The position numbers and the translations under genes were made by a program. The notes below the pieces were generated by a model. That model was given only the letters and a program-made list of their open reading frames with translations, made no database searches and was not told the origin of the DNA. A DNA stretch of 64,000 nucleotides from Antedon mediterranea (Eukaryota > Echinodermata > Crinoidea > Comatulida > Antedonidae): contig NC_092674.1 in NCBI RefSeq assembly GCF_964355755.1, forward strand, positions 19,928,001-19,992,000, in the 5' to 3' direction. Positions 4,841 to 59,745 of this stretch are shown here, piece after piece (positions within the stretch are counted from its first letter, which is position 1; every line of letters begins with the position of its first letter).

Positions 4841-4940
4841 AAACATGTATGGAAACATATGTTGCAGCTAGTAATCAGTGCAGTTTGATCTTACCAGGTA
4901 CCCATTTGTACACCTTGGTGAGGAGAGAACATTGGAATCT
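4841..4940. mobile_element. SINE fragment in YAP1 intron
   Basis: The stretch from TATGGAAACATA through GGTACCCATTTGTACACC to GAGGAGAGAACATTGG matches, with substitutions, the body of the SINE at 46575-46680, which has ATGGAAACATACTCCC followed by GGGTACCCATTTATACACC. Only the non-tRNA body is present here; no A or B box is seen. An open frame starting at 4849 is therefore repeat sequence. Confidence 0.55.
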
Positions 4941-5018
4941 ACAATTTAATTTTATGTTTCATTCTGTGTATTTTCTTTCAAAGAAAAATGTTTTTTATTT
5001 TTCAGTTTCATCCCTTAA

Positions 5019-11904
<6,886 letters not shown>

Positions 11905-20789: not shown

Positions 20790-23165
20790 CCGGTGACTTA
20801 CTTGACTTGTCTTATGGCGAGTGGAATCCTCGAACCGCCATGGCCCTCCAAAGTTTCCTGTCTCTCATAGCTGTTTCCACTTCTGCTCCATCCAAGCCAG
20901 TATCCATCTTTAGAACGCCTGTATACGAAAGAGGTGGTCTGCCTGGTTTCCTTTTCCCATGTCTTGGTTTCCAGACTACTAGTTCTGACACAGGCTCTTG
21001 CTTGCTTCTGAAGCTGCAGTGGCTAGCAAATCGGTTCCTTTTCTCTCTGATTTTTTGAGAGAGATTTGGTAGATCACACCATAGAGCTCCTTGTTGGTTT
21101 TATGCTTACTTCAATGAATGTTGAAAACTGTTCGCATCATCCTTATTTAACAGCCATCTAGGCTCTTTTCAATCTTTTTGGTGACTGTCCAGGACTCACA
21201 TTCATAGAGAAAGACTGATTCTACCGTGGCTGCGAAGATGCAATACTTTAGCGATTTGGGCAGAACTGACTTCCAGATTTTCGTTAGTTTACAACATGCT
21301 CTCCAGGCGGCTGCTTTGCGGACCTTAATATCCTGCTCTGTACTTAACATCCAAGCGCCAAGATATTTGAAATCATGGACTTCATCAAGGATGGAACCAT
21401 CTTTTGTTTTGATGGAGACTGGTTGCGTTTGGTTGTAGGCCATGTATTTGGTCTTCTTGGTGTTCATTGCTAGCCCCACAGATGCTACTAATGCTTCCAC
21501 TCTGTATAGAAGGTCTTGTGACTGATGTACTGCCTCTGACAAGAGGGCGATCTCATCAGTAAAGTCTAAGTCTGTGAGTACCTTTGGGCCAACTCTTTTG
21601 CTTTGCCTCCTAACAAGTTGGAAACCAAGTTCTTCCTCTTTTCCATCTATTGCCTTCCTCATTGCATAATCAAGAGCAATAACAAAGAGATATGGAGCTA
21701 GAGTGTCTCCCTGAAGTACCCCTGCTAGAATGTTAAAAGTCTCAGTATCTCCGTCAGGTGTGACCACTTTAGCCTTAGTACCTTGATACATAATCCCAAC
21801 AGCATCAACAGTCTCTCTTGGAATTCCATACGCCTTAAGAATTAAAAGCATCTTCCCACGGCGAATAGTGTCAAATGCCTTCTTAAAGTCGATGAATGTG
21901 ATGATAGCAGGCAAGTTGTTCAATTTTACACCTTCTATTACGCGTCTTAGGGCAAGAATGTGGCTTACAGTTGTTCTCCCTTCTCTAAAGCCATTCTGGT
22001 TTGTGCGTATGATCATCAAGCTCTGGTCTGATTCTGTTGAGTATCATTTTATTAAAGATATTGGCGACAATTGAACTTAGACTGATACCTCTGTAGTTTC
22101 CAGCCTTACTGAGGTCCCCTAACTTCGGTATCGGAATGATGTTGAGGATTGACTACTGTTCAGGATTCCTTCCTTCCAGCAGAACTTGGTGGCAAAACCC
22201 AAGGATAATGTCATCAAGGTTGCATCTCTTCAAAACTTCTGGAGGAATGCCATCTTCTCCAATACTCTTCTCTTCGACAAGTGATCCTTTCGCTTTATTA
22301 TACTCCTCTTAATCAAGTGGCCCTACTTTGATGTCAAGTTCATTTAGGATTGGTGGTGTTTCTTGGTCTTCATCCTCAATTACAGGCGGGTTTCCTAACA
22401 GATTCCTGAAGTGGTTGTACCAATTCTCAACTCTCTCCTGTTGGGAAATTCCTTCAAGCTGTCATCTTGCAGATGTTCTCCTCCCTGTAATCGAATTGAT
22501 CAGTTTCCAACTTTCTCAATGTTTACGATTGACATGAGCTTCTTCCAGTTTGTAAAGTTTCTGTGTAAGGTCTTCCTCAATGACAACGTTGTAGGCTTGC
22601 TCTAGGCTTTTCTTTGCATCTCTTTATACTGAAGTCTGTTCTCCTCAGTAGTGTCTTGTTCGTTCCTCTCTGTTTCTATCTTCTCTGATATTTCTCACAT
22701 TCAAAGTTGCAAAAGTTGTTATCGATTTGCAGCTTGTAAGTCTATTCGTTCCTTTTGTTAACACCATCTTCAAGTTTGCCCCTCCTAGGTAGGTTTAAGG
22801 ACAACCCGTCATGTGATTTGTAGAAATCAGTGTCCGCTCCAGGAATTGGTAAATTAGGGACTTTAACCCTAGTGTTTCTTTGGTTTGCCATCATAGTTTT
22901 TCAGTTGCTAGTTATAACTGTGGTCGCAACTCCTACAGTCACGTTTCAGTTTAGATGTTTTAATAGCATTGTAGAGTTTTCCTTCTCATCAAGTCAGGTT
23001 TGCTGTTGGAGTTTTCCTTCTCTCTGATGATTGCTCAAATAAACTATGCATTGAGTCTTAGCATACATAGTCAGTCCGTCCCAATTGAACAAATCAATTG
23101 GTTAACAACCCTTACCGCGTGAAGGTTGACCAGGACGTTTACCCGATGTCACACAAGTCGAAAAT
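20790..23165 (-). mobile_element. Decayed non-LTR retrotransposon (RTE-like), with reverse transcriptase
   Basis: The minus strand has a 290-codon open frame at 22019-21147 encoding reverse-transcriptase blocks: NGFREGRTT, FIDFKKAFDTI, GVLQGDTLAPYLF and LDFTDEIALLSEA, then NTKKTKYM and a C-terminal FLYECESWTVTKK. The frame then stops; further C-terminal blocks (KPGRPPLSY, DRKLWRAMAV) continue to about 20790 with stops. Upstream, an endonuclease-start motif (TTFATLNVRNIREDR) appears near 22710 and then jumps to late linker sequence, so most of the APE endonuclease is deleted. The part from 22790 to 23165 looks like 5' non-coding sequence of the same element and is the least certain. The catalytic box reads FTDE where F/YADD is expected, consistent with a dead copy. 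RTE is a best guess; the LINE identity is firm. Confidence 0.85.
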
Positions 23166-25150: not shown

Positions 25151-26319
25151 TTAGTTTACGGATGGACTAGTAGGCCTAATTTGATAATTAGACTACAGTA
25201 TCTGTATCGACGACGTACATAGGCCTAGACCTGATAATATTATTGATGTAGGCCTCTCACAAGCCGTACGACATGACGTGATTTGGTTAGATTATACTTA
25301 TTTTATTTATGTTATACGGAAAGAATAAATGTTGGACGCACCCACCAAAAAGAACAAAAATAAAATCATAAGCTTTCAACGTGATCATTCGACTCAATCA
25401 TGACGTCAACAGGGCATATTAGCAGCATATTTATGATCCATAACCAATAATTGTATAACCATGATATGCATATAAACAGGTCAAGGGGTAAACATAGGCC
25501 TACGCACAAAAAACGTACGTGTACGTACGCACACTTGATTTTTTGTGCGCAATCCCAAGTCAACATTTCAAAATGCTCAAAATCAATTTCTATAATTCGA
25601 GTGGTTCATTAAATTCTATTATTTCAAAATTGTCCAATGTTCCCGTCATGCGCATACAGTATTTAATATTTTGGACACAGCACGTGAGTGTCTAAAGCAA
25701 AAAGTGCAGTTGAATTTTTTTCTTCATACCCTACTTTTTAAATGTCAAAAACGTGACAAGTACAAATGCACGTAACTTAAAAATTGTGCGCACTCCAAAT
25801 GAGCAATTTATTGCAAATTTTGTGTTTAGTCTCTTATAATAACTCTTCTTATTTTGAAAACACACAGTTTCACGTAGGCCTAACTTTATTTTTAAAATAT
25901 CAACATAAAATATAATTCTTGTGTAAAGTATGAAAATCAAAAATAATCAGTGACTCATTGTGTGTTTCCCGGTGTGTTTAATCACGTCTCTGTATCAATT
26001 GAAAATATTATACAGTTCAGTATATTTAACATGTGCCGGTAACTTGCATATGGCGGTTTTAGCGTTCCATAGATATGGTTTTTGGATATTCGAAGTGCTC
26101 GTGTGCCCCATGTGAACGGTGGAGGTATATTCAGAGCGTCATTTCGACGATCGAGCATTCTCTACTTCTACGGAGCACCATTTATGCCTTTATTTACTTC
26201 CGAATTAGAAATAGTACTATACGGTAACTGCTCCAGTGGACCAAATTTAGCACCGGTGGAGCAGCACAGTGATATAAAATAGAAATAAGTCACTAATTTT
26301 AATATCTTTTCGTATGTAA

Positions 26320-27055
26320 ATACACTGTGCTCAAGTGGACCCAATTTGGAGCCAGGGGAGCACAATAATATAAAATAGAAATAAATCACTGAATTTTAAT
26401 ATCTTTTCGTATGTTAATACACTGTGCTCAAGTGGACCCAATTTGGAGCCAGGAGAGCACAGTGATATAAAATAGAAATAAGTCAATGATTTTTAGTATC
26501 TTTTCGTATGTTAATACCCTGTGCTCAAGTGGACCCAATTTGGAGGCAGGGGAGCACAGTGATATAAAATAGAAAAAAGTCACTGAATTTGAATATCTTT
26601 TCGTATGTTAATACACTGTGCTCAAGTGGACCCAATTTGGAGACAGGGGAGCACAGTGATATAAAATAGAAAAAAGTCACTGAATTGTAATAATTATCTT
26701 TTCGTATGTTAATACACTGTGCTCAAGTGGACCCAATTTGGAGACAGGGGAGCACAGTGATATAAAATAGAAAAAAGTCACTGAATTGTAATATATTTTC
26801 GTGTTTTAATACACTGTGCTCAAGTGGACCCAATTTGGAGCCAGTGGAGCACAGTGATATAAAATAGAAAAAAAGCAATGAATTTTAGTATCTTTTCGTA
26901 TGTTAATACACTGGGCTCACGTGGACCCAATTTGGCGCGCGCGCCCAATAAGCACACAGTGATATAAATAGAAAAAAAGTCACTCAATTATAATATCTTT
27001 TCGTATTTTAATACACTGTGCTCAAGGTGGACCCAATTTGGCAACAATGGGAGCA
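26320..27055. repeat. Left arm: about eight 97-bp tandem units
   Basis: Units start at about 26323, 26421, 26518, 26614, 26716, 26812, 26909 and 27015. Each contains CACTGTGCTCAAGTGGACCC, CAATTTGG, GAGCACAGTGATATAAAATA, AAGTCACTGAATTTTAATAT and CTTTTCGTATGTTAATA. CACTGTGCTC and GAGCACAGTG are complementary, so every unit carries its own hairpin. One unit near 26935 has GGCGCGCGCGCC in the loop. Confidence 0.8.
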
Positions 27056-27974
27056 CAGGGAAATAGTCACATTACAAAAACATCGAGAAAAAATACTTCT
27101 GGAATTAAAAAATATTTCAAACTTGGTATGTATGTTCAATATCGGTTACTCCCTCCGTAAACCAAAAGAAAAAATAGTTTCAAGCCACATCAGTGATTTT
27201 AATAACTTGCGTTTGCTTATAAATAATACTTACGAAAAAACATACAATTCTGACAATAATGATTTTTACAACAAAAAAACCGGTTAGGAATTCGATTTTT
27301 CCCTGTAAATTGACCAACTTAAATTTAAAATATACCAAGAAATATATATTGAAATTAAGGAGTATTTTTGTTTACAAAAGAAATGTTCGTATGTTAAAAC
27401 ACTGTGCTCCAGTGGATCCAATTTGGCGCCAGTGGAGCACAGGGAAATAGTCACATACAAAAACATCAAGAAAAAATACTTCTGGATTTAAAAAATATTT
27501 CAAACTTGGTATATAAGTTCAATATCGGTTACTCCATCCGTAATGCAAAAGAAAAATTAGTTTCAAGCCATATCAGTGATTTTAGTAATTTTCGTTTGTT
27601 TAAAATGTATATTTATGATAGAACATAGAATTCCAACACATTTTTTAAACTTTAAATTTTGATCGTCATCAAATAATTGTCCTACACATTTGAAATTTGG
27701 TAGTATACGTTCAATAGGTTACTACACGTTCAATATGTTACTACATAATTCATATTTTTAACATATGTCTTTTTTTTAATCGCTAAAGTTTAAAAAAATG
27801 TGTTGGAATTGTATGTTCTTTCATAAGTATTTATCTTAGACAAACGCAAGTTATTAAAATCACTAATGTGGCTTGAAACTAATTTTTCTTTTGCATTACG
27901 GATGGAGTAACCGATATTGAACTTATATACCAAGGTTGAAATATTTTTGAATTCGATAAATGCCCCCATTGGTG

Positions 27975-28885
27975 CCAAAGTGGGTCCACTTGAGCTCAGT
28001 ATATTAACATACGAAAAGATATTAAAATTTAGTGACTTTTTTCTATTTTATATTACTGTGCTCACTGGCGCGCGCGCCAAATTGGGTCCACGTAAGCACA
28101 GTGTATTAACATACGAAAAGATATTAAAATTTAGTGACTTATTTCTATTTTATATCACTGTGCTCCACTGGCTCCAAATTGGGTCCACTTGAGCACAGTG
28201 TATTAACATACGAAACGATATTAAAATTCAGTGACTTATTTCTATTTCATATCACTGTGCTCCACTGGCGCCAAATTAGGTCCACTTGTGCACAGTGTAT
28301 TAACATACGAAAATATATTAACATTCAGTGACTTCTTTCTATTTTATATCACTGTGCTCTCCTGGCTCCAAATTGGGTCCACTTGAGCACAGTGTATTAA
28401 CATACGAAACGATATTAAAATTCAGTGACTTATTTCTATTTCATATCACTGTGCTCCACTGGCGCCAAATTAGGTCCACTTGTGCACAGTGTATTAACAT
28501 ACGAAAATATATTAACATTCAGTGACTTCTTTCTATTTTATATCACTGTGCTCTCCTGGCGCCAAATTGGGTCCACTTGAGCACAGTGTATTAACATACG
28601 AAAAGATATTAAAATTCAGTGACTTATTTCTATTTTATATCACTGTGCTCTCCTGGCTCCAAATTCGGTCCACTTGAGCACAGTGTATTGACATACGAAA
28701 AGATATTAAAATTCAGTGACTTATTTCTATTTTATATCACTGTGCTCCTCACTGGCGCCAAATTGTGTCCACTTGAGCACAGTGTATTAACATACGAAAA
28801 GAATATTAAAATTAGTGACTTATTTCTATTTTATATCACTGCGCTCCACTAGTGCTAAATTTGGTCCACTGGAGCAGTTACCGTA
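27975..28885. repeat. Right arm: about nine inverted 97-bp units
   Basis: The same unit as the left arm, in reverse complement: TATTAACATACGAAAAG, ATATTAAAATTCAGTGACTT, ATTTCTATTTTATATCACTG, TGCTCCACTGGCGCCAAATT, GGGTCCACTTGAGCACAGTG. Two neighbouring pairs of units (about 28190-28330 and 28385-28525) are nearly identical to each other, indicating a recent two-unit duplication. The GGCGCGCGCGCC variant appears near 28067, mirroring the left arm. Confidence 0.8.
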
Positions 28886-29365: not shown

Positions 29366-31608
29366 GGGATCCAGTCAAGTCGCCCAATACAAAGTCGCCC
29401 CATCGCAAAGTCGCCCCAAAACAAAGTCGCCCCATCGCAGAGTCGCCCACGGTTTTATTTCGGTATGATGATTATGAAGCGCCGCCGCTAGTAGTATGCT
29501 GTTTTAATCATATCGGTTGCGTTTGATATTGATTGCGTTGTTACTTTGGTCGCGCTAATGCACTTGTCAATTGTATGACTCACTATACGACCCCCGGGAG
29601 AGGTGCGTCATGGGTGCGTCATTTACAAATAATTACTGACGCAGGGGTGCGTCAAAAAACCTAGATGGTACGTCACATCAATGAACAAGGTGTGTCAATG
29701 TCCGTCACTTTACCACCCACCATATCATAAACAACATGGTCACAGTGCGTCAAAATGGGTGCGTCATGGTCACCTAAAGGTAAGTCACCTTTTTGACGTA
29801 CGGGTGCGTCATGGTATTCAAAAGTATGACGCACATCGGACAAATGACGCACCTCTCCCGGGGGTCGTATAGTGGGTCATACAATTGACAAGTGCATAAA
29901 TGTCGTATAGGCCTACATTATAATGTTTATCCTATTATATACATAATTTGTGTTTTAATTTTAATTTTACAGGTTTTAATGGAGTGATGTGCTTTTTAAA
30001 AATCATTAAAAAAATAGTCCCTTTGTCTTTGTTTCAAAGTTCTAAAAAGATTATCCCTGATTTATAGTTGCGAAAATGTTAATTTAATATGATTTTAAAA
30101 TTAGTTACTAGAGCCACAATTACGAATCTTTCTTCAACCTACGCGTGAATACCAGCTCATTTTTTAGGATAATATAATATTAAATGTATAAATACAGTAG
30201 TAGTAGGCCTTCGTATAGATTTACAGTAGTTAAAACAATAACAGTGTTGTAAGACAATGAGTGTTATAGGCTACTTATTGATCATTTTGCATTTATTGAC
30301 AAGTTAGGCTATGCGTCTTAATTTTATAATGACTCAAAATGAAGAAATAAAAAAAAAAAAAGGATTTCATCGCCGATATGATTGTTTTACATGCAAGTAT
30401 TTTAGTAAAATTTAAAACGCTACATTTTGACCATGGAAAAACCATTGTACAGTATCGTGTGCGTGTTTTTTAAAAAGGGGAATCCCCGACGGTCAGCAGA
30501 AAGACGTAGCAGCTGTGAGGAAACAGATAGCAGAAGGCGCAGCTCCGATTGGTTTCAGAGAATGTTTCAGATGGCGAGTCGCCTTTTATTCAACAGCACA
30601 ATGATCATATTACTGAAGAAATTCTTTTCAACCCTTTTGGTTATAGAACATTCTAATTATCATGCCTAATAAATATCCTCATATCGGGTGTTTATTTAAT
30701 TTTATATTAAACAAGACAGTGAAGAGGCACGGAATAATACGTACACGGACGTACGACGAATACACACACGCACGTCATCATTTACGACATATAGTGGTGA
30801 TATGATGCAATTGTATAATGGATATAATGATGGGATTGCCTTTCCAGGCTTACAATCAATGTTCATTGTAATACTATGTATATAATAGTAAACTGAATGT
30901 TTATAAATAAATTGTTTTACGTAATTTGTTGCATATAAAATAAAAGACACAGACGCCGCCTACGTTTCCTGTAAAATATTTCACATTTAAATAATTATGT
31001 ACTGTTAAATGACATTATGCTGGATAATACTATAATCTTAAACTATGTTTACAAATTGTCATTTTTTAAGGCACACATCTTTCTCATCATACTGACCTGT
31101 AAAATAAAAACAAAAATCAATTATTAATATAGGCCTAATAATAATAATAAATATTCATCGACCAAAGTAAAAATAATCTAGATCGTATAACATCATTTTA
31201 TGGCGACCAAAATTAAACGCGACCGATTTCGAACGCGACTGATATCATCGTAAAACTCCGGCGGGGTTTCCCCATCTTCAGATGGTGCGTTGTAGTGCGA
31301 CAACGGCGGAGTAATTACGGGGGTTTCCCTCTGGTAAGCTAGCACATTAGTGCGACCGCGGAGTGATTAGTCGGTGTTTCCTCTCTGATGATGGGGATGC
31401 GTGCCGATCGTGTGACCTGAGACTACACGTTCCGTGTTATTTTGTGCATCATTGCGACATTTTACGCACTTGTAAACTATTTTTTAACGTTTTGGGGCGA
31501 CTTTGTGATGGGGCGACTTTGCGTTGGGGCGACTGTGCGATGGGGCGACTTTGTGATGGGGCGACTGTGTCGGGGCGACTTTGCAATGGGGCGACTTGAC
31601 TAGCATCC
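29366..31608. mobile_element. 2.24-kb TIR element with 8-bp target duplication ATTGAATG
   Basis: ATTGAATG occurs at 29358-29365 and again at 31609-31616. Between them, GGGATCCAGTCAAGTCGCCC at the left is mirrored by GGGCGACTTGACTAGCATCC at the right. Inside each terminus is an array of about 16-18-bp units (AAAGTCGCCCCATCGC on the left, the complement GGGGCGACTTTGYGATG on the right), four copies left and about six right. The interior lacks a transposase ORF and hosts a nested MITE (29559-29896) and two GC-rich tandem copies near 31255-31400. An 8-bp duplication with GG ends would fit Merlin- or hAT-like transposases, but the family is not established. Confidence 0.75.
29559..29896. mobile_element. 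Nested 338-bp MITE, TAA target duplication, copy 1
   Basis: TAA flanks both ends (29556-29558, 29897-29899). The termini TGCACTTGTCAATTGTATGA are inverted, and the inversion continues through CACTATACGACCCCCGGGAG and AGGTGCGTCAT for more than 50 bp. The interior repeats GTGCGTCA/TGACGCAC about a dozen times in both orientations. A TAA duplication suggests a PIF/Harbinger-type transposase. It has no coding capacity. Related copies lie at 51147-51417 and 51585-51903. Confidence 0.75.
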
Positions 31609-31624
31609 ATTGAATGATACCGTT

Positions 31625-32420
31625 TCGACAACTGTTGAAACCAGGGGCACCATTTGAATGGAACAATAACCTACAACTATTGGAATTGAAGAATCCAAAC
31701 TCATTATAGTCAGTGAGATCGAGGAAGGTAAGGTGTTAGAATATTCAACAATATGCGACCTACATGTCTTGCTACAGATTAGTCCAAGACGGGTATCGGA
31801 TTCTGGCTGCTTCAGAAGCATTGCGAATGTCCATCTACCATCTCATTCAGCCAAATCACGATATGCTCCAGTTGAAGGTGAAGCGTTGGTGGTCACATAT
31901 GCACTTGAGAAAACATGCTATTTTGTCCTAGGCTGTAATGACCACACTATTGCAGTTGATCATAAGCCTCTATTAAAAATATTTGGTGACAGATCGTTGG
32001 AGGACATTCCGGTACAGATTTCGAATGATTCATATCCCCGGAGCACGTCACCGAGCTGCTGACTCAATCTCTCGACACCCATGCTGCCCTAAGAATGTTC
32101 TTGCACCAGTTCTTACGGACGAGGCCAATATAACCAACCTCAACAACATGGAGACTACCTCACCAGTATTCTGCCTTCGGACCGACTATGTTGACTCAAC
32201 CAGTGAGAGTGTCGATCAACAGTTACTTACCTTCAGCTCTATGGCATTGGACGATCTACAACGTGGGATACAGTCAAGCTGGAGACAAATAGCGACGACA
32301 ACATGGCCAGTCTGCTCACTATAATTGAGTTGGGTATGCCTCACTCACCCCATGAACTGCCTGGTATGCTACGTGAATACTTTTCGATCCGTAAAGACTT
32401 GAGTTCCTTCCATTCATTCT
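31625..32420 (+). mobile_element. Ty3/gypsy pol remnant (end of RT and RNase H)
   Basis: Broken frames keep the signature order of a Ty3/gypsy polyprotein: KPGAPFEWNNNLQ near 31635, VSEIEEG near 31710, SRYAPVEGEALVVTYALEK at about 31855, CYFVLGCNDHTIAVDHKPLL and GDRSLEDI near 31990, then in another frame RYRFRMIHIPGARHRAADSI and SRHP near 32020-32080. The jump between GDRSLEDI and RYRF removes the residues normally between them, so there is a small deletion with a frame change. No LTRs, integrase or gag were found. It is a dead fragment, directly abutting the right end of the TIR element. Confidence 0.8.
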
Positions 32421-33134: not shown

Positions 33135-33290
33135 GGGGAATTAGATCCTAAATCTATGAAACCTGAAGATGCTTTGATATTACAGTATTGTAATTATGTT
33201 AATTGTAATTTCTATTGAGACTAATAAGTTAAATTAAATATACAGTAGTCAATATCTGATAATGACTTTTAAACTTTTTATTTGTTTCAG

Positions 33291-34122
33291 ATGGCTGTCA
33301 GACGCTCTCTCGTAAGTGTCTGCAACCTTGGACGAATACCCTATACAAAAGCTTTAAAAATCCAAAAAACAATTCAATCCAATATTAAAAATGGCCTAAA
33401 CCAATCAAATTCTGTACCGGTAAACACGCTATTATTATGTGAGCATAACCCTGTCTATACAATAGGTATTCGGACTAAAGACTACGATTTGAATGAAGAA
33501 GAACGCTTGCTGAAACTTGGAGCTGAATTTCTGCAAACTGATCGTGGTGGTTTGATAACATTTCATGGACCTGGGCAGCTTGTAGCATATCCTATTTTAT
33601 ACCTAGGTGACTTTAAGAAGAGTGTGCGCTGGTATATTTGTGAATTGGAAAAATGTATTATAGAGACATGCCGTAGGTTTGACATTCAAAGCGAAACATC
33701 TCCACATACTGGTGTCTGGGTGAATGATAAGAAAATAGCTGCAATAGGTCAAGTACATTGTACCTTAATGTCACAATATATATGAAGTTTATTTTTGTTA
33801 ATCCCTTATTTTTTTTTATTCAATAATTTAAGCCTTATATTTATTTTATTTTAATATTTTTTCAGGTGTACAGTGTAAACGCTTTGTAACATGTCACGGA
33901 CTAGCTCTCAATTGCAATACAGATCTTAGTTGGTTTTCCAACATTATACCCTGTGGAATTGAGGGAAAAGATGTAACATCGTTGACTATAGAATCCGGGG
34001 CAGAGGTTACAGTAGAAGATGTTATTCCAAGCTTTGTTGAATCATTTTCATTGCAATTTCAATGCGATGTCAAAGAAATTACTCTTAAAGAACTTACCAA
34101 TCAACTCAATTTTAATTTATAA
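33291..34122 (+). CDS. LIPT2: Lipoyl(octanoyl) transferase 2, mitochondrial
   Basis: Two coding exons, 33291-33747 and 33866-34122, joined in phase 1 (ATAG|GT...CAG|GTGTA), give 237 residues, close to vertebrate LIPT2. The LipB signatures are intact: CEHNPVYTIGIR, TDRGGLITFHGPGQLVAYPI, HTGVWVNDKKIAAIG with the conserved lysine, THGLALNC-like CHGLALNCNTDLSWF, and IIPCGIEGKDVTSL holding the expected catalytic cysteine. The family moves octanoyl groups from acyl carrier protein to the glycine-cleavage H protein and 2-oxoacid dehydrogenases, the first step of mitochondrial lipoate synthesis. The ATG at 33291 directly follows TTTGTTTCAG, which looks like a splice acceptor, so a non-coding first exon probably lies upstream. 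AATAAA signals occur at 34121 (overlapping the stop) and 34167. Confidence 0.93.
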
Positions 34123-34299
34123 TAAAAAAAATATATCTTTCTGCTTTTATTAATATATATTTACTTAATAAAGTACTGTAATGTGAATCTGAAAACATTT
34201 TGCCATTTTCATTTATTTATATTTATTTGTAAAGGTCACATAAATCATTAACGAGCACCTCAAAAGGATAGAACACAATCGTCAGTCCTGATGCACACC

Positions 34300-37200
34300 A
34301 GATGCCTGAAAGCAAGAGTGTGGCATACCTCCAGATGTTTCAAATTAAATGTGTAGTGCACCTCCTTATTCCTCAAGGGTGTAGCACACCACCAGATACC
34401 TCAAAGCAAGAGTTTAACACATATCCAGGTACCTCAAAGCAAGAGTGTAGCACACCTCCAGATACCTCAAAGCAAGGGTGTATAACACACTTTCAGATGC
34501 ATGGAAGCAATATGTAGTGCACTTCCAAGTTCCTCAAAGCAGGAGATTATACTGTACACACTTTATGCCTCAAAGCAAGAGAGTAGCACATCTCTAGACA
34601 CCAGGGCAATAGTTTAACACACTTTCAGATGCCTCAAAGCAAGAGAGTAGCACATCTCTAGACACCAGGGCAAGAGTTTAATACACTTTCAGATGCCTCA
34701 AAGCAAGAGTGTAGCACATCTCAAGATATCAGAGCAAGAGTTTAACACACTTTCAGATGCCTCAAAGCAAGAGAGTAGCACATCTCTAGACACCAGGGCA
34801 ATAGTTTAACACACTTTCAGATGCCTCAAAGCAAGAGTGTAGCAAATCTCTAGACACCAGAGCAAGAGTTTAACACACTTTCAGATGCCTCAAAGCAAGA
34901 GAGTAGCACATCTCTAGACACCAGGGCAATAGTTTAACCCACTTTCAGATGCCTCAAAGCAAGAGAGTAGCACAGCTGCATCTCTAGACACCAGGGCAAT
35001 AGTTTAACAAACTTTCAGATGCCTCAAAGCAAGAGTGTAGCACATCTCTAGACACCAGGGCAATAGTTTAATACACTTTCAGATGCCTCAAAGCAAGAGT
35101 GTAGCACATCTCTAGATACCAGAGCAAGAGTTTAATACATTTTCAGGTGCCTCAAAGCAAGAGTGTAGCACATCTCAAGATATCGGAGCAAGAGTTTAAC
35201 ACACTTTCAGATGCCTCAAAGCAAGAGTGTAGCACATCTCTAGACACCAGAGCAAGAGTTTAACACACTTTCAGATGCCTCAAAGCAAGAGTGTAGCACA
35301 TCTCAAGATATCAGAGCAAGAGTTTAATACACTTTCAGATGCCTCAAAGCAAGAGTGTAGCACATCTCAAGATATCGGAGCAAGAGTTTAACACACTTTC
35401 AGATGCCTTAAAGCAAGAGAATAGCACATCGCTAGATACCAGAGCAAGAGTTTAACACACTTTCAGATGCCTCAAAGCAAGAGAGTAGCACATCTCTAGA
35501 TACCAGAGCAAGAGTTTAATACACTTTCAGATGCCTCAAAGCAAGAGAGTAGCACATCTCTAGATACCAGAGCAAGAGTTTAACACACTTTCAGATGCCT
35601 GAAAGCAAGAGAGTAGCACATCTCTAGACACCAGAGCAAGAGTTTAATACACTTTCAAATGCCTTAAAGCAAGAGTGTAGCACATCTCAAAATATCAGAG
35701 CAAGAGTTTAACACACTTTCAGATGCCTGAAAGCAAGAGTGTAGCACATCTCTAGACACCAGAACAAGAGTTTCATACACTTTAAGATGCCTCACAGCAA
35801 GAGTGTAGCACATCTCTAGACACCAGAGCAAGAGTTTAACACACTTTCAGATGCCTCAAAGCAAGAGTGTAGCACATCTCAAAATATCAGAGCAAGAGTT
35901 TAATACACTTTCAGATGCCTCAAAGCAAGAGTGTAGCACATCTCAAGATATCAGAGCAAGAGTTTAACACACTTTCAGATGCCTTAAAGCAAGAGTGTAG
36001 CACATCTCTAGACACCAGAACAAGAGTTTAATACACTTTCAGATGCCTCAAAGCAAGAGTGTAGCACATCTCTAGACACCAGAGCAAGAGTTTAACACAC
36101 TTTCAGATGCCTCAAAGCAAGAGTGTAGCACATCTCAAAATATCAGAGCAAGAGTTTAATACACTTTCAGATGCCTCAAAGCAAGAGTGTAGCACATCTC
36201 AAGATATCAGAGCAAGAGTTTAACACACTTTCAGATGCCTTAAAGCAAGAGTTTAGCACATCTCTAGACACCAGAACAAGAGTTTAATACACTTTCAGAT
36301 GCCTCAAAGCAAGAGTGTAGCACATCTCTAGATACCAGAGCAATAGTTTAATACACTTTCAGATGCCTCAAAGCAAGAGAGTAGCACATCTCTAGATACC
36401 AGAGCAAGAGTTTAACACACTTTCAGATGCCTCAAAGCAAGAGTGTAGCACATCTCAAAATATCAGAGCAAGAGTTTAATACACTTTCAGATGCCTCAAA
36501 GCAAGAGTGTAGCACATCTCAAGATATCGGAGCAAGATTTTAACACACTTTCAGATGCCTTAAAGCAAGAGTGTAGCACATCTCTAGATACCAGAGCAAG
36601 AGTTTAATACACTTTCAGATGCCTTAAAGCAAGAGTGTAGCACATCTTTAGACACCAGAGCAAGAGTTTAATACACTTTCAGATGCCTTAAAGCAAGAGT
36701 GTAGCACATCTTTAGATACCAGAGCAAGAGTTTAATACATTTTCAGATGCCTCAAAGCAAGAGTGTAGCACATCTCAAGATATTGGAGCAAGAGTTTAAA
36801 ACACTTTCAGATGCCTTAAAGCAAGAGAATAGCACATCGCTAGATACCAGAGCAAGAGTTTAATACATTTTCAGATGCCTCAAAGCACGAGTGTAGCACA
36901 TCTCAAGATATCGGAGTAAGAGTTTAACACACTTTCAGATGCCTCAAAGCAAGGGTAGCACATCTCTAGACACCAGAGCAAGAGTTTAACACACTTTCAG
37001 ATGCCTCAAAGCAAGAGTGTAGCACATCTCAAGATATCAGAGCAAGAGTTTAATACACTTTCAGATGCCTCAAAGCAAGAGTGTAGCACATCTCAAGATA
37101 TCGGAGCAAGAGTTTAACACACTTTCAGATGCCTTAAAGCAAGAGAATAGCACATCGCTAGATACCAGAGCAAGAGTTTAACACACTTTCAGATGCCTCA

Positions 37201-40200
37201 AAGCAAGAGAGTAGCACATCTCTAGATACCAGAGCAAGAGTTTAATACACTTTCAGATGCCTCAAAGCAAGAGAGTAGCACATCTCTAGATACCAGAGCA
37301 AGAGTTTAACACACTTTCAGATGCCTGAAAGCAAGAGAGTAGCACATCTCTAGACACCAGAGCAAGAGTTTAATACACTTTCAAATGCCTTAAAGCAAGA
37401 GTGTAGCACATCTCAAAATATCAGAGTAAGAGTTTAACACACTTTCAGATGCCTGAAAGCAAGAGTGTAGCACATCTCTAGACACCAGAACAAGAGTTTA
37501 ATACACTTTCAGATGCCTCACAGCAACAGTGTAGCACATCTCTAGACACCAGAGCAAGAGTTTAACACACTTTAAGATGCCTCAAAGCAAGAGTGTAGCA
37601 CATCTCAAAATATCAGAGCAAGAGTTTAATACACTTTCAGATGCCTCAAAGCAAGAGTGTAGCACATCTCAAGATATCAGAGCAAGAGTTTAACACACTT
37701 TCAGATGCCTTAAAGCAAGAGTGTAGCACATCTCTAGACACCAGAACAAGAGTTTAATACACTTTCAGATGCCTCAAAGCAAGAGTGTAGCACATCTCTA
37801 GACACCAGAGCAAGAGTTTAACACACTTTCAGATGCCTCAAAGCAAGAGTGTAGCACATCTCAAAATATCAGAGCAAGAGTTTAATACATTTTCAGATGC
37901 CTCAAAGCAAGAGTGTAGCACATCTCAAGATATCAGAGCAAGAGTTTAACACACTTTCAGATGCCTTAAAGCAAGAGTGTAGCACATCTCTAGACACCAG
38001 AACAAGAGTTTAATACACTTTCAGATGCCTCAAAGCAAGAGTGTAGCACATCTCTAGACACCAGAGCAAGAGTTTAATACACTTTCAGATGCCTCAAAGC
38101 AAGAGAGTAGCACATCTCTAGATACCAGAGCAAGAGTTTAACACACTTTCAGATGCCTCAAAGCAAGAGTGTAGCACATCTCAAAATATCAGAGCAAGAG
38201 TTTAATACACTTTCAGATGCCTCAAAGCAAGAGTGTAGCACATCTCAAGATATCGGAGCAAGATTTTAACACACTTTCAGATGCCTTAAAGCAAGAGTGT
38301 AGCACATCTCTAGATACCAGAGCAAGAGTTTAATACACTTTCAGATGCCTTAAAGCAAGAGTGTAGCACATCTTTAGACACCAGAGCAAGAGTTTAATAC
38401 ACTTTCAGATGCCTTAAAGCAAGAGTGTAGCACATCTCTAGATACCAGAGCAAGAGTTTAATACATTTTCAGATGCCTCAAAGCAAGAGTGTAGCACATC
38501 TCAAGATATTGGAGCAAGAGTTTAAAACACTTTCAGATGCCTTAAAGCAAGAGAATAGCACATCGCTAGATACCAGAGCAAGAGTTTAATACACTTTCAA
38601 TGCCTTAAAGCACGAGTGTAGCACATCTCTAGATACCAGAGCAAGAGTTTAATACACTTTCAATGCCTGAAAGCAAGAGAGTAGCACATCTCTAGATACC
38701 AGAGCAAGAGTTTAATACATTTTCAGATGCCTCAAAGCAAGAGTGTAGCACATCTCAAGATATCGGAGCAAGAGTTTAACACACTTTCAGATGCCTCAAA
38801 GCAAGAGTAGCACATCTCTAGACACCAGAGCAAGAGTTTAACACACTTTCAGATGCCTCAAAGCAAGAGTGTAGCACATCTCAAGATATCAGAGCAAGAG
38901 TTTAATACACTTTCAGATGCCTCAAAGCAAGAGTGTAGCACATCTCAAGATATCGGAGCAAGAGTTTAACACACTTTCAGATGCCTTAAAGCAAGAGAAT
39001 AGCACATCGCTAGATACCAGAGCAAGAGTTTAACACACTTTCAGATGCCTCAAAGCAAGAGAGTAGCACATCTCTAGATACCAGAGCAAGAGTTTAATAC
39101 ACTTTCAGATGCCTCAAAGCAAGAGAGTAGCACATCTCTAGATACCAGAGCAAGAGTTTAACACACTTTCAGATGCCTGAAAGCAAGAGAGTAGCACATC
39201 TCTAGACACCAGAGCAAGAGTTTAATACACTTTCAAATGCCTTAAAGCAAGAGTGTAGCACATCTCAAAATATCAGAGCAAGAATTTAACACACTTTCAG
39301 ATGCCTGAAAGCAAGAGTGTAGCACATCTCTAGACACCAGAACAAGAGTTTAATACACTTTCAGATGCCTCACAGCAAGAGTGTAGCACATCTCTAGACA
39401 CCAGAGCAAGAGTTTAACACACTTTAAGATGCCTCAAAGCAAGAGTGTAGCACATCTCAAAATATCAGAGCAAGAGTTTAATACACTTTCAGATGCCTCA
39501 AAGCAAGAGTGTAGCACATCTCAAGATATCAGAGCAAGAGTTTAACACACTTTCAGATGCCTTAAAGCAAGAGTGTAGCACATCTCTAGACACCAGAACA
39601 AGAGTTTAATACACTTTCAGATGCCTCAAAGCAAGAGTGTAGCACATCTCTAGACACCAGAGCAAGAGTTTAACACACTTTCAGATGCCTCAAAGCAAGA
39701 GTGTAGCACATCTCAAAATATCAGAGCAAGAGTTTAATACACTTTCAGATGCCTCAAAGCAAGAGTGTAGCACATCTCAAGATATCAGAGCAAGAGTTTA
39801 ACACACTTTCAGATGCCTTAAAGCAAGAGTGTAGCACATCTCTAGACACCAGAACAAGAGTTTAATACACTTTCAGATGCCTCAAAGCAAGAGTGTAACA
39901 CATCTCTAGACACCAGAGCAAGAGTTTAACACACTTTCAGATGCCTCAAAGCAAGAGTGTAGCACATCTCAAAATATCAGAGCAAGAGTTTAATACACTT
40001 TCAGATGCCTCAAAGCAAGAGTGTAGCACATCTCAAGATATCGGAGCAAGAGTTTAACACACTTTCAGATGCCTTAAAGCAAGAGAATAGCACATCGCTA
40101 GATACCAGAGCAAGAGTTTAATACACTTTCAATGCCTTAAAGCACGAGTGTAGCACATCTCTAGATACCAGAGCAAGAGTTTAATACACTTTCAATGCCT

Positions 40201-43200
40201 GAAAGCAAGAGAATAGCACATCGCTAGATACCAGAGCAAGAGTTTAACACACTTTCAGATGCCTCAAAGCAAGAGAGTAGCACATCTCTAGATACCAGAG
40301 CAAGAGTTTAATACACTTTCAGATGCCTCAAAGCAAGAGAGTAGCACATCTCTAGATACCAGAGCAAGAGTTTAACACACTTTCAGATGCCTCAAAGCAA
40401 GAGTGTAGCACATCTCAAGATATCAGAGCAAGAGTTTAATACACTTTCAGATGCCTCAAAGCAAGAGTGTAGCACATCTCAAGATATCGGAGCAAGAGTT
40501 TAACACACTTTCAGATGCCTTAAAGCAAGAGAATAGCACATCGCTAGATACCAGAGCAAGAGTTTAACACACTTTCAGATGCCTCAAAGCAAGAGAGTAG
40601 CACATCTCTAGATACCAGAGCAAGAGTTTAATACACTTTCAGATGCCTCAAAGCAAGAGAGTAGCACATCTCTAGATACCAGAGCAAGAGTTTAACACAC
40701 TTTCAGATGCCTGAAAGCAAGAGAGTAGCACATCTCTAGACACCAGAGCAAGAGTTTAATACACTTTCAAATGCCTTAAAGCAAGAGTGTAGCACATCTC
40801 AAAATATCAGAGTAAGAGTTTAACACACTTTCAGATGCCTGAAAGCAAGAGTGTAGCACATCTCTAGACACCAGAACAAGAGTTTAATACACTTTCAGAT
40901 GCCTCACAGCAAGAGTGTAGCACATCTCTAGACACCAGAGCAAGAGTTTAACACACTTTAAGATGCCTCAAAGCAAGAGTGTAGCACATCTCAAAATATC
41001 AGAGCAAGAGTTTAATACACTTTCAGATGCCTCAAAGCAAGAGTGTAGCACATCTCAAGATATCAGAGCAAGAGTTTAACACACTTTCAGATGCCTTAAA
41101 GCAAGAGTGTAGCACATCTCTAGACACCAGAACAAGAGTTTAATACACTTTCAGATGCCTCAAAGCAAGAGTGTAGCACATCTCTAGACACCAGAGCAAG
41201 AGTTTAACACACTTTCAGATGCCTCAAAGCAAGAGTGTAGCACATCTCAAAATATCAGAGCAAGAGTTTAATACACTTTCAGATGCCTCAAAGCAAGAGT
41301 GTAGCACATCTCAAGATATCAGAGCAAGAGTTTAACACACTTTCAGATGCCTTAAAGCAAGAGTGTAGCACATCTCTAGACACCAGAACAAGAGTTTAAT
41401 ACACTTTCAGATGCCTCAAAGCAAGAGTGTAGCACATCTCTAGACACCAGAGCAAGAGTTTAATACACTTTCAGATGCCTCAAAGCAAGAGAGTAGCACA
41501 TCTCTAGATACCAGAGCAAGAGTTTAACACACTTTCAGATGCCTCAAAGCAAGAGTGTAGCACATCTCAAAATATCAGAGCAAGAGTTTAATACACTTTC
41601 AGATGCCTCAAAGCAAGAGTGTAGCACATCTCAAGATATCGGAGCAAGATTTTAACACACTTTCAGATGCCTTAAAGCAAGAGTGTAGCACATCTCTAGA
41701 TACCAGAGCAAGAGTTTAATACACTTTCAGATGCCTTAAAGCAAGAGTGTAGCACATCTTTAGACACCAGAGCAAGAGTTTAATACACTTTCAGATGCCT
41801 TAAAGCAAGAGTGTAGCACATCTCTAGATACCAGAGCAAGAGTTTAATACATTTTCAGATGCCTCAAAGCAAGAGTGTAGCACATCTCAAGATATTGGAG
41901 CAAGAGTTTAAAACACTTTCAGATGCCTTAAAGCAAGAGAATAGCACATCGCTAGATACCAGAGCAAGAGTTTAATACACTTTCAATGCCTTAAAGCACG
42001 AGTGTAGCACATCTCTAGATACCAGAGCAAGAGTTTAATACACTTTCAATGCCTGAAAGCAAGAGAGTAGCACATCTCTAGATACCAGAGCAAGAGTTTA
42101 ATACATTTTCAGATGCCTCAAAGCAAGAGTGTAGCACATCTCAAGATATCGGAGCAAGAGTTTAACACACTTTCAGATGCCTCAAAGCAAGAGTAGCACA
42201 TCTCTAGACACCAGAGCAAGAGTTTAACACACTTTCAGATGCCTCAAAGCAAGAGTGTAGCACATCTCAAGATATCAGAGCAAGAGTTTAATACACTTTC
42301 AGATGCCTCAAAGCAAGAGTGTAGCACATATCAAGATATCGGAGAAAGAGTTTAACACACTTTCAGATGCCTTAAAGCAAGAGAATAGCACATCGCTAGA
42401 TACCAGAGCAAGAGTTTAACACACTTTCAGATGCCTCAAAGCAAGAGAGTAGCACATCTCTAGATACCAGAGCAAGAGTTTAATACACTTTCAGATGCCT
42501 CAAAGCAAGAGAGTAGCACATCTCTAGATACCAGAGCAAGAGTTTAACACACTTTCAGATGCCTGAAAGCAAGAGAGTAGCACATCTCTAGACACCAGAG
42601 CAAGAGTTTAATACACTTTCAAATGCCTCAAAGCAAAAGTGTAGCACATCTCAAAATATCAGAGCAAGTATTTAACACACTTTCAGATGCCTGAAAGCAA
42701 GAGTGTAGCACATCTCTAGACACCAGAACAAGAGTTTAATACACTTTCAGATGCCTCACAGCAAGAGTGTAGCACATCTCTAGACACCAGATCAAGAGTT
42801 TAACACACTTTAAGATGCCTCAAAGCAAGAGTGTAGCACATCTCAAAATATCAGAGCAAGAGTTTAATACACTTTCAGATGCCTCAAAGCAAGAGTGTAG
42901 CACATCTCAAGATATCAGAGCAAGAGTTTAACACACTTTCAGATGCCTTAAAGCAAGAGTGTAGCACATCTCTAGACACCAGAACAAGAGTTTAATACAC
43001 TTTCAGATGCCTCAAAGCAAGAGTGTAGCACATCTCTAGACACCAGAGCAAGAGTTTAACACACTTTCAGATGCCTCAAAGCAAGAGTGTAGCACATCTC
43101 AAAATATCAGAGCAAGAGTTTAATACACTTTCAGATGCCTCAAAGCAAGAGTGTAGCACATCTCAAGATATCAGAGCAAGAGTTTAACACACTTTCAGAT

Positions 43201-44500
43201 GCCTTAAAGCAAGAGTGTAGCACATCTCTAGACACCAGAACAAGAGTTTAATACACTTTCAGATGCCTCAAAGCAAGAGTGTAGCACATCTCTAGACACC
43301 AGAGCAAGAGTTTAATACACTTTCAGATGCCTCAAAGCAAGAGAGTAGCACATCTCTAGATACCAGAGCAAGAGTTTAACACACTTTCAGATGCCTCAAA
43401 GCAAGAGTGTAGCACATCTCAAAATATCAGAGCAAGAGTTTAATACACTTTCAGATGCCTCAAAGCAAGAGTGTAGCACATCTCAAGATATCGGAGCAAG
43501 ATTTTAACACACTTTCAGATGCCTTAAAGCAAGAGTGTAGCACATCTCTAGATACCAGAGCAAGAGTTTAATACACTTTCAGATGCCTTAAAGCAAGAGT
43601 GTAGCACATCTTTAGACACCAGAGCAAGAGTTTAATACACTTTCAGATGCCTTAAAGCAAGAGTGTAGCACATCTCTAGATACCAGAGCAAGAGTTTAAT
43701 ACATTTTCAGATGCCTCAAAGCAAGAGTGTAGCACATCTCAAGATATTGGAGCAAGAGTTTAAAACACTTTCAGATGCCTTAAAGCAAGAGAATAGCACA
43801 TCGCTAGATACCAGAGCAAGAGTTTAATACACTTTCAATGCCTTAAAGCACGAGTGTAGCACATCTCTAGATACCAGAGCAAGAGTTTAATACACTTTCA
43901 ATGCCTGAAAGCAAGAGAGTAGCACATCTCTAGATACCAGAGCAAGAGTTTAATACATTTTCAGATGCCTCAAAGCAAGAGTGTAGCACATCTCAAGATA
44001 TCGGAGCAAGAGTTTAACACACTTTCAGATGCCTCAAAGCAAGAGTGTAGCACATCTCTAGACACCAGAGCAAGAGTTTAACACACTTTCAGATGCCTCA
44101 AAGCAAGAGTGTAGCACATCTCTAGACACCAGAGCAAGAGTTTAACACACTTTCAGATGCCTCAAAGCAAGAGTGTAGCACATCTCAAGATATCAGAGCA
44201 AGAGTTTAATACACTTTCAGATGCCTCAAAGCAAGAGTGTAGCACATCTCAAGATATCGGAGCAAGAGTTTAACACACTTTCAGATGCCTTAAAGAAAGA
44301 GAATAGCACATCGCTAGATACCAGAGCAAGAGTTTAACACACTTTCAGATGCCTCAAAGCAAGAGAGTAGCACATCTCTAGACACCAGAACAAGAGTTTA
44401 ACACACTTTCAGATGCCTCAAAGCACGAGTGTAGCACATCTCTAGATACCAGGGCAAGAGTTTAATACACTTTCAGATGCCTCAAAACAAGAATGTAGCC
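34300..44500. repeat. 10-kb hierarchical satellite: 32-bp half units, 64-bp monomers, about 1.85-kb higher-order repeat
   Basis: Roughly 155-160 tandem copies of a 64-bp monomer. Each monomer has half A (CAGATGCCTCAAAGCAAGAG then TGTAGCACATCT) and half B (CTAGACACCAGAGCAAGAGT then TTAACACACTTT); both are 32 bp and share AGAT/CxCC, GCAAGAGT and a CACA block, so the monomer is a diverged dimer. Half B comes in types (CTAGACACCAGAG, CTAGATACC, CAAGATATCAG, CAAGATATCGG, CAAAATATCAG, CTAGACACCAGAA). Their order recurs about every 1,852 bp (29 monomers). Marker CTCACAGC lies at 35791, 37517, 39369, 40903 and 42755; marker TGCCTTAAAGCACGAG at 38601, 40133, 41987 and 43839. The array begins about 180 bp after the LIPT2 stop with degenerate 32-mers and ends abruptly near 44500. 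All frames close quickly, so it is non-coding. Confidence 0.95.
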
Positions 44501-44800
44501 AACTGATAATTAGAACTTTTCCCCCCTTTTTCCATTTGTTCAATCCATCTAAATGTAACGTAGTGACTAATTAAGAACAAAAAAATAATTTAATTTCAGT
44601 GCTTTTGCAAGCTTAAATGTTATTAATGGACTAAATATATAACAAATTCATGTAGAAATATCAATGCACATACATTATATTTATTACAAAGCAATATTAA
44701 TTTTATGTGTTTTTGTTATTTCTTAAATATTACTGTGAATGTGTGCTCATTATGAACGGCCCTATATAATTGAGTAGTAGTTAAATAGCTGTGAGTGAGT
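44501..44800. other. Unique spacer after the satellite
   Basis: AT-rich sequence with no gene or repeat that I recognise. Confidence 0.4.
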
Positions 44801-44814
44801 GTGTCCCGTATTCA

Positions 44815-45015
44815 TTCTGAACGCAGGGGAATGAGCTGTTAGGAGCTCATTATGTGGAAGGGTGGCCAGTTCCTTTTCACGCCGTCTTTTTTCTCCCTAG
44901 TATTTTCAACCAGGTACTCATTTACAGCTGAGTGGACTGGGAGTTGTCAGGAATTGAACCCAGGTCTATCTGTATGACAGTCAAGTGTCCTAACCACTCG
45001 GCTATATTGCACACT
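44815..45015 (-). mobile_element. tRNA-derived SINE, first copy
   Basis: On the minus strand TAGCCGAGTGGTTAGGACAC matches the pol III A box and GGTTCAATTCC the B box, about 45 bp apart, followed by a non-tRNA body containing CCACTCAGCTGTAAATGAG, TACCTGGTTGAAAATACTAG and GGAACTGGCCACCCTTCC. The tRNA part has no intact acceptor stem as drawn from the sequence, so it is a SINE head and not a tRNA gene. Confidence 0.7.
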
Positions 45016-45448: not shown

Positions 45449-46553
45449 CAATAGTGTTGGTGAAATTCAGTCCAAAATACGCAGAATTTTTTCCAAAATA
45501 CGTCAAGTTGAGGGCGCTATACTAATCCAAAATACGTCGACTTGAGGGCGCTATTCATTTTCCAAAATACCCGAATTGTCCAAAATACGTCAAGTTGAGG
45601 GCGCTAGTCATTTTCCAAAATACGCGATTTGTCCAAAATACGTCAATTTGGAACCGCTTGTAATTTTCCAAAATACGCAATTTAAATAACTCCTTTACTT
45701 CTTCTAACCAATTAATTATTGATATTATTTTAATCACAATACCATATGCTTTTTATTATTATATATTATATGAAATAACTATTATGTTAGATTTCAGATT
45801 AGGTAACTTATTAGACCATAAGTACTGTACATTAAATTGAAAGCGATGTTTGTCTGTCGAGCTCGGGAAAAATATCGATTTTGTAGATCACCAAATATAT
45901 AACACATGCCTATGACTATACTTAAATACTATATACGTACATGCTGGTTTTGTAGCCGGTTTATGCCGCATTTAAACTAGCTACGTCTGGCAATGCAATC
46001 GTACATCGTTCAGACATTATTAATGTATATTATAGGCACTGTCTATTGACTGATGTTGGCACATATTTGTTTTTATTCAGTAATAAATGATTACATTGAA
46101 AAATAATAATTGGCTACTCTATGACATTTTATTTACAAAAAATGCTGCCTTCTAATACTTTCATTTATAACTAAAATGTACTTGTTTGTTTTATTCCAAG
46201 AAACTTTTTTTAATACATTAAACTGTAATTTTACCTTACACTCTCAATATGATACATTTGGAAAGGCTCTCGTATTTTGGAAAAAAGTTTGCCGCCCTCA
46301 AGTTGACGTATTTTGGAAAATTACTAGCGGTCGCAAATTGACGTATTTTGGACAAATCGCGTATTTTGGAAATAAATAGCGCCCTCAATTTGACGTATTT
46401 TGGACAATTCATGTATTTGGGATAATTTATAGCGCCCTCAACTTGACGTATTTTGGACAATTCGCGTATTTTGGAAAATGAATAGCGCCCTCAAGTCGAC
46501 GTATTTTGGAAAAAATTCTGCGTATTTTGGACTGATGTTCACCAACCCGACTC
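45449..46553. mobile_element. 1.1-kb hAT-like TIR element with CCAAAATACG sub-repeats
   Basis: It is flanked by GTATTTTT at 45441-45448 and 46554-46561, and it interrupts a SINE. The termini match as GTTGGTGAAATTCAGTCC against GGACTGATGTTCACCAAC. Each arm (about 220 bp left, 280 bp right) is made of four to six units containing TCCAAAATACGTCAAGTTGA and GGGCGCTAGTCATTTT, inverted on the other arm. The middle, about 45690-46260, is AT-rich without a transposase. An 8-bp duplication and ends beginning CA are compatible with hAT, which is inference. A decayed relative lies at 25065-25150. Confidence 0.75.
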
Positions 46554-57640: not shown

Positions 57641-59745
57641 AACATCAACATCCACGCATCATTGCTATAAGGCATCACCACATCATAATTACCATCTCCA
57701 CATCAGTGCCTACCATCACCAGATAACCAACACCAAATATACCCATATCATCATTACATCACCAATACCAAATATACCCAAATCATCATAAGCTATACCA
57801 TCTTTACATAGTTAATACCATCTCCATTATTATTGTCTAAAACATCATGATCTTCATCTTCATCGTTATTCACATCTTCGTGGCTATTACCATGGTCATT
57901 CCCGCCATTAACATCGTCATCCGTACCATCATCACCATTACCATCGGCATCTATAGCATCATCACTATTACCATCGTCATATATACCATCATCACCATTA
58001 CCAACGTCATCCGTACCATCATCACCATTACCATCGGCATCTATAGCATCATCACTATTACCATCGTCATTATGGACGTACCATCATCACCATTACCAAC
58101 GTCATCCGTACCATCATCACCATTACCATCGGCATCTATAGCATAATCACTATTACCATCGTCATGTACCATCATCACCATTATCATCGTCTTTCGTACC
58201 ATCATAAACATTACCATCGTCATATGTACCATCATCACCATTACCATCGGCATCTATACCATCATCACCATTACCATCGGCATCTATAGCATCATCACTG
58301 TTACCATCGTCATATGTACCATCATCACCATTACCATCGGCATCTATACCATCATCACCATTACCATCGTCATCTATACCATCATCACCGTTACGATCGT
58401 CATCTATACCATCATCACCATTACCATCGTCATCCGTACCATCATCAACATTACCATCGTCATCCGTACCATCATCACCATTATCATCGTCATCCGTATT
58501 ATCATCGTCATCCGTACCATCATCACCATTACCATCGGCATCTATACCATCATCACCATTACCATCGGCATCTATACCATCATCATCATTACCATCGTCA
58601 TATGTACCATCATCAACATTATCATCGTCATCCGTACCATCATCACCATTAACATCGTCATATATACCATTATCACCATTACGATCGTCATCTATATCAT
58701 CATCACCATTACCATCGTCATATATATCATTATCACCATTACAATCGTCATCTATACCATCATCACCATTACGACCGTCATCTATACCATTATCACCATT
58801 ACCATCGTCATCTATACCATTATCACCATTACCATCGTCATCTATACCATTATCACCATTACCATCGTCATCTATACCATCATCACCATTACGATCGTCA
58901 TCTATACCATTATCACCATTACCATCGTCATCTATACCATTATCACCATTACCATCGTCATCTATACCATTATCACCATTACCATCGTCATCTATACCAT
59001 CATCACCATTACGATCGTCATCTATACCATTATCACCATTACCATCGTCATCTATACCATTATCACCATTACCATCGTCATCTATACCATTATCACCATT
59101 ACGATCGTCATCTATACCATCATTTTTATTTCATATTTTATTTTATATTTCATACTCATCCAACAGCGAGTAACCCGCCAATTACAGGATGGATAAACTA
59201 TTTAATAATTTCACAAGACAAACATATACACAAGATGCTCTACATAAACAAAGACTTATTATTAAGTCTTTGGGAGTGGAGTTGTAAATTGTCATGAGAA
59301 AAAAACCCTGACATCATCACCATTACGATCGTCATCTATACCATTATCACCATTACGATCGTCATCTATATCATCAGCACCATTACCATCGGCATCTATA
59401 CCATCATCACCATTACGATCGTCATCTATATCATCATCACCATTACCATCGGCATCTATACCATCGACACACCATTACCATCGTCATCCGTACCATCATC
59501 AACATTATCATCGTCATCCGTACCATCATCACCATTACGATCGTCATCTATACCGTCATCACCATTACGATCGTCATCTATATCATCAGCACCATTACCA
59601 TCGGCATCTATACCATCACCACCATTACCATCGTCATCCGTACCATCATCAACATTATCATCGTCATCCGTACCATTATCACCATTACGATCGTCATCTA
59701 TACCATTATCACCTTTACGATCGTCATCTATACCATCATATTCAT
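57640..59745. repeat. 30-bp minisatellite of ATC-rich triplets
   Basis: Degenerate CATCA/ACCAT triplets begin near 57640 and become a regular 30-bp unit (ACCATCATCACCATTACCAT then CGTCATCTAT) from about 57850 to 59745, more than 50 copies, interrupted at 59124-59311. Variants CATCGGCATCTAT, CATCGTCATCCGT, and TTACGATCG alternate in patches, with identical runs of several units at 58770-59100, so local homogenisation has occurred. Because the unit is 30 bp and poor in stops, frames stay open; none shows gene-like features. Confidence 0.9.
59124..59311. mobile_element. Retroelement-like insert inside the minisatellite
   Basis: A 188-bp unique segment (TTTTATTTCATATTTTATTT at the left, GAGTAACCCGCCAATTACAG inside, AAAAAAACCCTGA at the right) splits the array. 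The A- or T-rich end and lack of repeats fit a truncated LINE/SINE insertion. CATCAT flanks both ends, but the array itself is full of CATCAT. Confidence 0.5.

Follow-up and report, generated by a model that had tools for sequence, protein, structure and literature searches.

A single-locus 64-bp tandem array with irregular higher-order repeats beside LIPT2 in the crinoid Antedon mediterranea

We analysed a window of 64,000 nucleotides from Antedon mediterranea (contig NC_092674.1, forward strand), in which a long tandem array lies next to LIPT2 (lipoyl(octanoyl) transferase). The coding end of this gene occupies positions 33273-34122 on the + strand, outside the array, as two stop-to-stop frames (33273-33785 and 33832-34122) separated by an intron. 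Both frames match family models of the enzyme (Pfam LplA-B_cat, E-values 4.6e-30 and 6.1e-10; NCBIfam lipB TIGR00214, 5.4e-28 and 8e-15), in agreement with the gene named in the original prediction. The last base of the LIPT2 stop codon is 34,122, and the repeat becomes recognisable from 34,299 onwards by wraparound alignment with the 64-bp unit (34,298 in the analysis of the left edge), leaving about 176 bp between gene and array, as expected from the distance of about 180 bp to a housekeeping gene that had been noticed earlier. The last LIPT2 frame looks unbroken, and growth of the array beside it thus seems not to have cut the gene. The sequence that separates LIPT2 from the array (left flank, 34125-34300, 176 bp) and the right flank (44500-44760, 261 bp) each have a single match in the genome, namely themselves at 100% identity.

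The array consists of head-to-tail monomers, about 158 copies of 64 bp over about 10.2 kb. Tandem Repeats Finder (TRF) reports a 64-bp unit at 34,374-44,499 (158.2 copies, 91% matches, score 16,266) and wraparound alignment extends the array to 34,299-44,499, with 161 rows of which the two terminal ones are partial; the 64-bp monomer proposed earlier is therefore confirmed by both methods. A unit of this length in 158.2 copies falls among minisatellites, that is, tandem units of roughly 10-100 bp. All repeats are on the + strand, with 152 forward and 0 reverse matches to a marker unit within the window (≤2 mismatches). Among 155 core monomers we counted 52 distinct sequences, only 16 of which occur once. 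No long open frame was found in the array, and a coding array is ruled out by longest stop-free runs of 72 codons on the + strand and 61 on the - strand.

Each 64-bp monomer is itself a pair of related half units. The consensus halves are identical in 24 of 34 alignment columns with a score of 32, which none of 2,000 shuffles equalled (mean 7.6, maximum 26). Half units of 32 bp had been predicted: the kinship of the halves holds, while their lengths are 31 and 33 bp instead of twice 32, and the raw identity at lag 32 (0.254 in the array) gives no ungapped half-unit signal. The left edge of the array (34298-34575, + strand) is degenerate, with eight complete units, each 29-36 bp long, and some partial ones. 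Here a 33-bp period fits better than a 64-bp period, with wraparound scores of 338 and 258, respectively (at most 34 in 200 shuffled edges), in a comparison that leans towards 33 bp since an edge unit itself served as the 33-bp reference. If the first half (A) and the second half (B) both descended from a 33-bp unit, each should be closer to the edge unit than to the other half; this is observed, with 28 of 33 columns matching the edge unit for A and 27 of 33 for B, compared with 24 of 34 when the two halves are aligned to each other. This pattern is suggestive, though not proof, of a common descent of both halves from an edge-type unit. Divergence from the consensus averages 9.4 columns in the first 16 rows, a figure in which partial units are scored as gaps, and 3.0-3.5 columns in the next nine groups of 16. 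Such decay is confined to the left side; the right edge is sharp and carries no degenerate old units.

Beyond the edge, the monomers are arranged in higher-order blocks, all on the + strand. The first 18 homogenised 64-bp monomers (34576-35733; rows 5-22 of the monomer table) are in irregular order and include one with a 6-bp insertion. They are followed by block 1 (35734-37459; 1,726 bp, 27 monomers), which matches block 2 at 99.19% identity once a 126-bp gap is set aside, and by block 2 (37460-39311; 1,852 bp, 29 monomers), which aligns gap-free to block 4 (40846-42697; 1,852 bp, 29 monomers) at 99.62% identity. Between the latter two lies block 3 (39312-40845; 1,534 bp, 24 monomers), whose monomers are in a rearranged order joined in 64-bp register; its identity to the other blocks by MAFFT is 94.87-96.80%, values that may be low given that the gap was placed at the block start. 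Block 5 (42698-44499; 1,802 bp) is cut by the right flank and shows 98.22% identity with both block 2 and block 4. Exact repeats in the array extend over 1,254 bp between copies 1,852 bp apart, over 1,053 bp for a lag of 3,386 and over 613 bp for a lag of 1,534.

The order of monomer variants was compared with that in 1,000 shuffles of the 155 core monomers. Two monomers differ by 4.87 columns on average, by 3.20 columns at lag 29 and by 2.97 at the best lag of 53, which equals 29+24; the lowest mean difference in the shuffles at any lag from 1 to 80 was 3.96. The periodicity near 29 monomers is thus real and withstands the refuting check proposed with the original prediction; variants recur in fixed order, and monomers at matching positions in different blocks resemble each other more closely than adjacent ones do. 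The unit length is not constant. The original prediction gave a higher-order unit of about 1,852 bp (29 monomers) with marker spacings of 1,852-1,854 bp, and this fits four of the seven intervals: marker CTCACAGC is spaced by 1,726, 1,852, 1,534 and 1,852 bp and marker TGCCTTAAAGCACGAG by 1,532, 1,854 and 1,852 bp. The higher-order pattern accordingly stands and its regularity does not, with blocks of 27, 29, 24 and 29 monomers in which 1,852 bp is the commonest among several lengths. The length differences between blocks are 126 and 318-320 bp, corresponding to two and five whole monomers. A sub-layer of four monomers is visible in runs, but its mean at lag 4 (4.10) is not below the lowest shuffle (3.96). 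Lag 3 (5.10 against the mean of 4.87) is not favoured as a period, and nucleosome phasing at 3 x 64 = 192 bp was rejected on this ground.

Searches of the 354-Mb assembly, which comprises 11 contigs of 22-41 Mb and smaller ones such as C12 to C18 (13 to 567 kb), place the array at one locus on one of the 11 large contigs. All 76 genome matches to an exact 26-mer fall within the window. A 19-mer allowed ≤2 mismatches has 157 matches, 152 of them in the array; the five outside (among the matches listed, two on contig C2 and one on C3) are at the level of the reversed-pattern control, which gave 4. Strongly diverged copies could escape these searches. None of the 14-mers of the array occurs in 13 other stretches of the genome that were examined, and COX1 has no match in the 354-Mb assembly. 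As a background, we took one arbitrary 10-kb sample from each large contig and found arrays of at least 500 bp in three of the 11, including one sample in which arrays of a 106-bp unit measure 1.9 and 5.2 kb. The monomer-order test was applied to four other arrays. One of them passes, the unrelated 5.2-kb array of 106-bp units (positions 4469-9630 of sample L006, near 6.0 Mb on contig C6; lag 14 = 3.27, lowest of 1,000 shuffles 3.81), and the other three do not exceed shuffles; a fifth array (sample L009) was viewed by raw autocorrelation only. Long arrays, at times with higher-order order, are thus part of the repertoire of this genome. At about 10 kb, the array beside LIPT2 is longer than any in the samples, which counts towards an outlier in size.

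Taken together, these data make it very probable that the array is a single-locus minisatellite (a variable number tandem repeat, VNTR, a class defined by length variation between individuals, applied here to an array known from one assembly) that carries higher-order repeats in nested layers and has no demonstrated function. From the observed layers, whole-monomer length differences and single-locus state, we infer an order of events and a mechanism of exchange. A unit of about 33 bp would have been duplicated in tandem, and two diverged neighbouring units, one of which had lost 2 bp (31+33), would then have been amplified jointly as the 64-bp monomer. Subsequently, a run of about 29 variant monomers may have been re-amplified, either through unequal exchange in register, involving sister chromatids or homologues, or through slippage during replication. 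Later exchanges would have removed or rearranged whole monomers, giving blocks of 27, 29, 24 and 29 monomers, and the outermost left copies presumably escaped homogenisation. The length differences of two and five monomers, together with the long near-identical blocks, support in-register exchange; a single assembly does not discriminate between unequal crossing over, gene conversion and slippage. Several layers of tandem growth (33 bp, 64 bp and blocks of 24-29 monomers), along with the likely ancestral units, can thus be read in a single 10-kb stretch, making an otherwise ordinary array a small and clean example.

Arrays of this kind have been described elsewhere. Human locus-specific VNTRs are reported to include arrays >10 kb and higher-order repeats, with the label 'HOR' on 6 of 18 rows marked VNTR among those listed in a Table 1 (PMC2588610). 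The closest counterpart there is a 61-bp VNTR at Xp22.33, of 18.6 kb, whose irregular higher-order repeats measure 1.6 and 2.4-2.5 kb (PMC2588610). As far as described there, both arrays occupy a single locus and share a unit of about 60 bp, a length of 10-20 kb and irregular higher-order repeats; the array studied here differs in its length of 10.2 kb and its blocks of 1.53, 1.73 and 1.85 kb, and the hosts are unrelated. The array fits this known kind of single-locus VNTRs with irregular higher-order repeats, by a likeness of plan and not of sequence. A further source also cites higher-order repeats in beetles and other animals (PMC5615363). Consequently, the earlier association of higher-order arrays with primate centromeres proves too narrow, given such arrays at human single-locus VNTRs (PMC2588610), in beetles and other animals (PMC5615363) and in one of the four other arrays of the present genome. 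Compared with primate alpha-satellite higher-order repeats, as outlined in the same source (PMC5615363), the array shares variants in fixed order and blocks (mostly 97-99.6% identical) more alike than neighbouring monomers; alpha satellite has a 171-bp unit, megabase arrays, many chromosomes and centromere function, none of which was found here. The euchromatic satellite repeats described in beetles (PMC5844308, PMC11049206) are likewise tandem repeats outside heterochromatin and near genes, but those families occupy many loci, frequently as solitary repeats, and the present array was found at one.

Other explanations of the locus were weighed. A transposable element might have brought the array to this position as its repeat core, an idea favoured by the common occurrence of tandem-repeat-armed elements nearby, one family of which (97 bp) has 1,242 matches genome-wide. 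Element sequence flanking such a core should recur at other loci, but the 176-bp left and the 261-bp right flank are each found once, the ground on which a transposon-borne array was rejected, and an inverted partner is absent from the window (0 reverse-strand matches, ≤2 mismatches); we consider this origin improbable. To about the same small degree, the array could be a functional local element whose variable length sets the chromatin or expression of LIPT2. Its position about 176 bp from the gene would suit such a role, and satellite repeats near genes in Tribolium are reported to affect their neighbours (PMC5844308). That effect, however, works through a family shared with heterochromatin, and no such family was found here. 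The folding of a monomer pair does not exceed that of shuffled sequence (z = +1.01), so that no notable strand structure was found in it, and the longest stop-free run of 72 codons leaves no long open frame. Even less probable, by a little, is a broader proposal in which a recent expansion has made the array a chromatin element of variable length that tunes LIPT2, or in which it is the precursor of a satellite or centromere yet to form, still confined to one locus and with its 33-bp ancestors kept.

We give the same slight chance to an assembly artefact, in which wrongly joined or collapsed copies would make the block pattern. Near-identical blocks of 1,852 bp are the likeliest sites of misassembly, and the pattern is judged from the assembly alone; on the other hand, the window is free of N, the blocks bear variants of their own and differ by 0.4-5%, and an array of about 10 kb is within reach of long reads. 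Least probable of all, and very much so, is a centromeric or pericentromeric satellite with higher-order repeats as in primate centromeres, the kinship implied in the original prediction and supported by none of the tests: the blocks are alpha-satellite-like in form and 98-99.6% identical, but the array is only about 10 kb long, lies between genes and unique flanks on both sides, contains no match to the CENP-B box on either strand (a motif that is dispensable in many animals) and was found at a single locus, on one of the 11 large contigs, instead of forming large arrays common to chromosomes. The link was rejected on this one-locus distribution together with the unique flanks. A higher-order arrangement by itself does not point to a centromere.

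The observed/expected ratio of CpG is 0.08 in the array (34298-44499) and 0.69 in the rest of the window. The near-absence of CpG may be a chance property of the founding unit, as 3.3% of shuffles of a 64-bp unit of this make-up contain no CpG. With this probability, and with TpG not raised in the array (0.71), no conclusion was drawn on CpG loss as a sign of methylation.

The window contains several other repeats. Tandem arrays of a 97-bp unit at 26263-27065 and 27966-28876 are in opposite orientation, with foldback-like arms of up to 398 nt that are 93% complementary; a 34-base piece of this family (≤2 mismatches) has 555 forward and 687 reverse matches in the genome (control 0), often as paired opposite clusters among the 100 matches listed. 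Just right of the 64-bp array, 53-bp tandem arrays at 45492-45676 and 46307-46531 are arranged in the same foldback-like manner (147-nt arms, 87% complementary). Two short arrays of 16 bp (29377-29448 and 31493-31597), whose TRF consensus units look reverse-complementary by eye, lie beside an RNase H-like retroelement frame (31670-32059), and a reverse transcriptase frame is found at 21150-22043 on the - strand (Pfam RVT_1, E-value 2.6e-19). Farther along, about 61 copies of a 30-bp CATCATCAC-rich unit span 57905-59739, with higher-order order not beyond shuffles. Finally, the stretch at 44940-45010 resembles, by eye, a tRNA-derived SINE.
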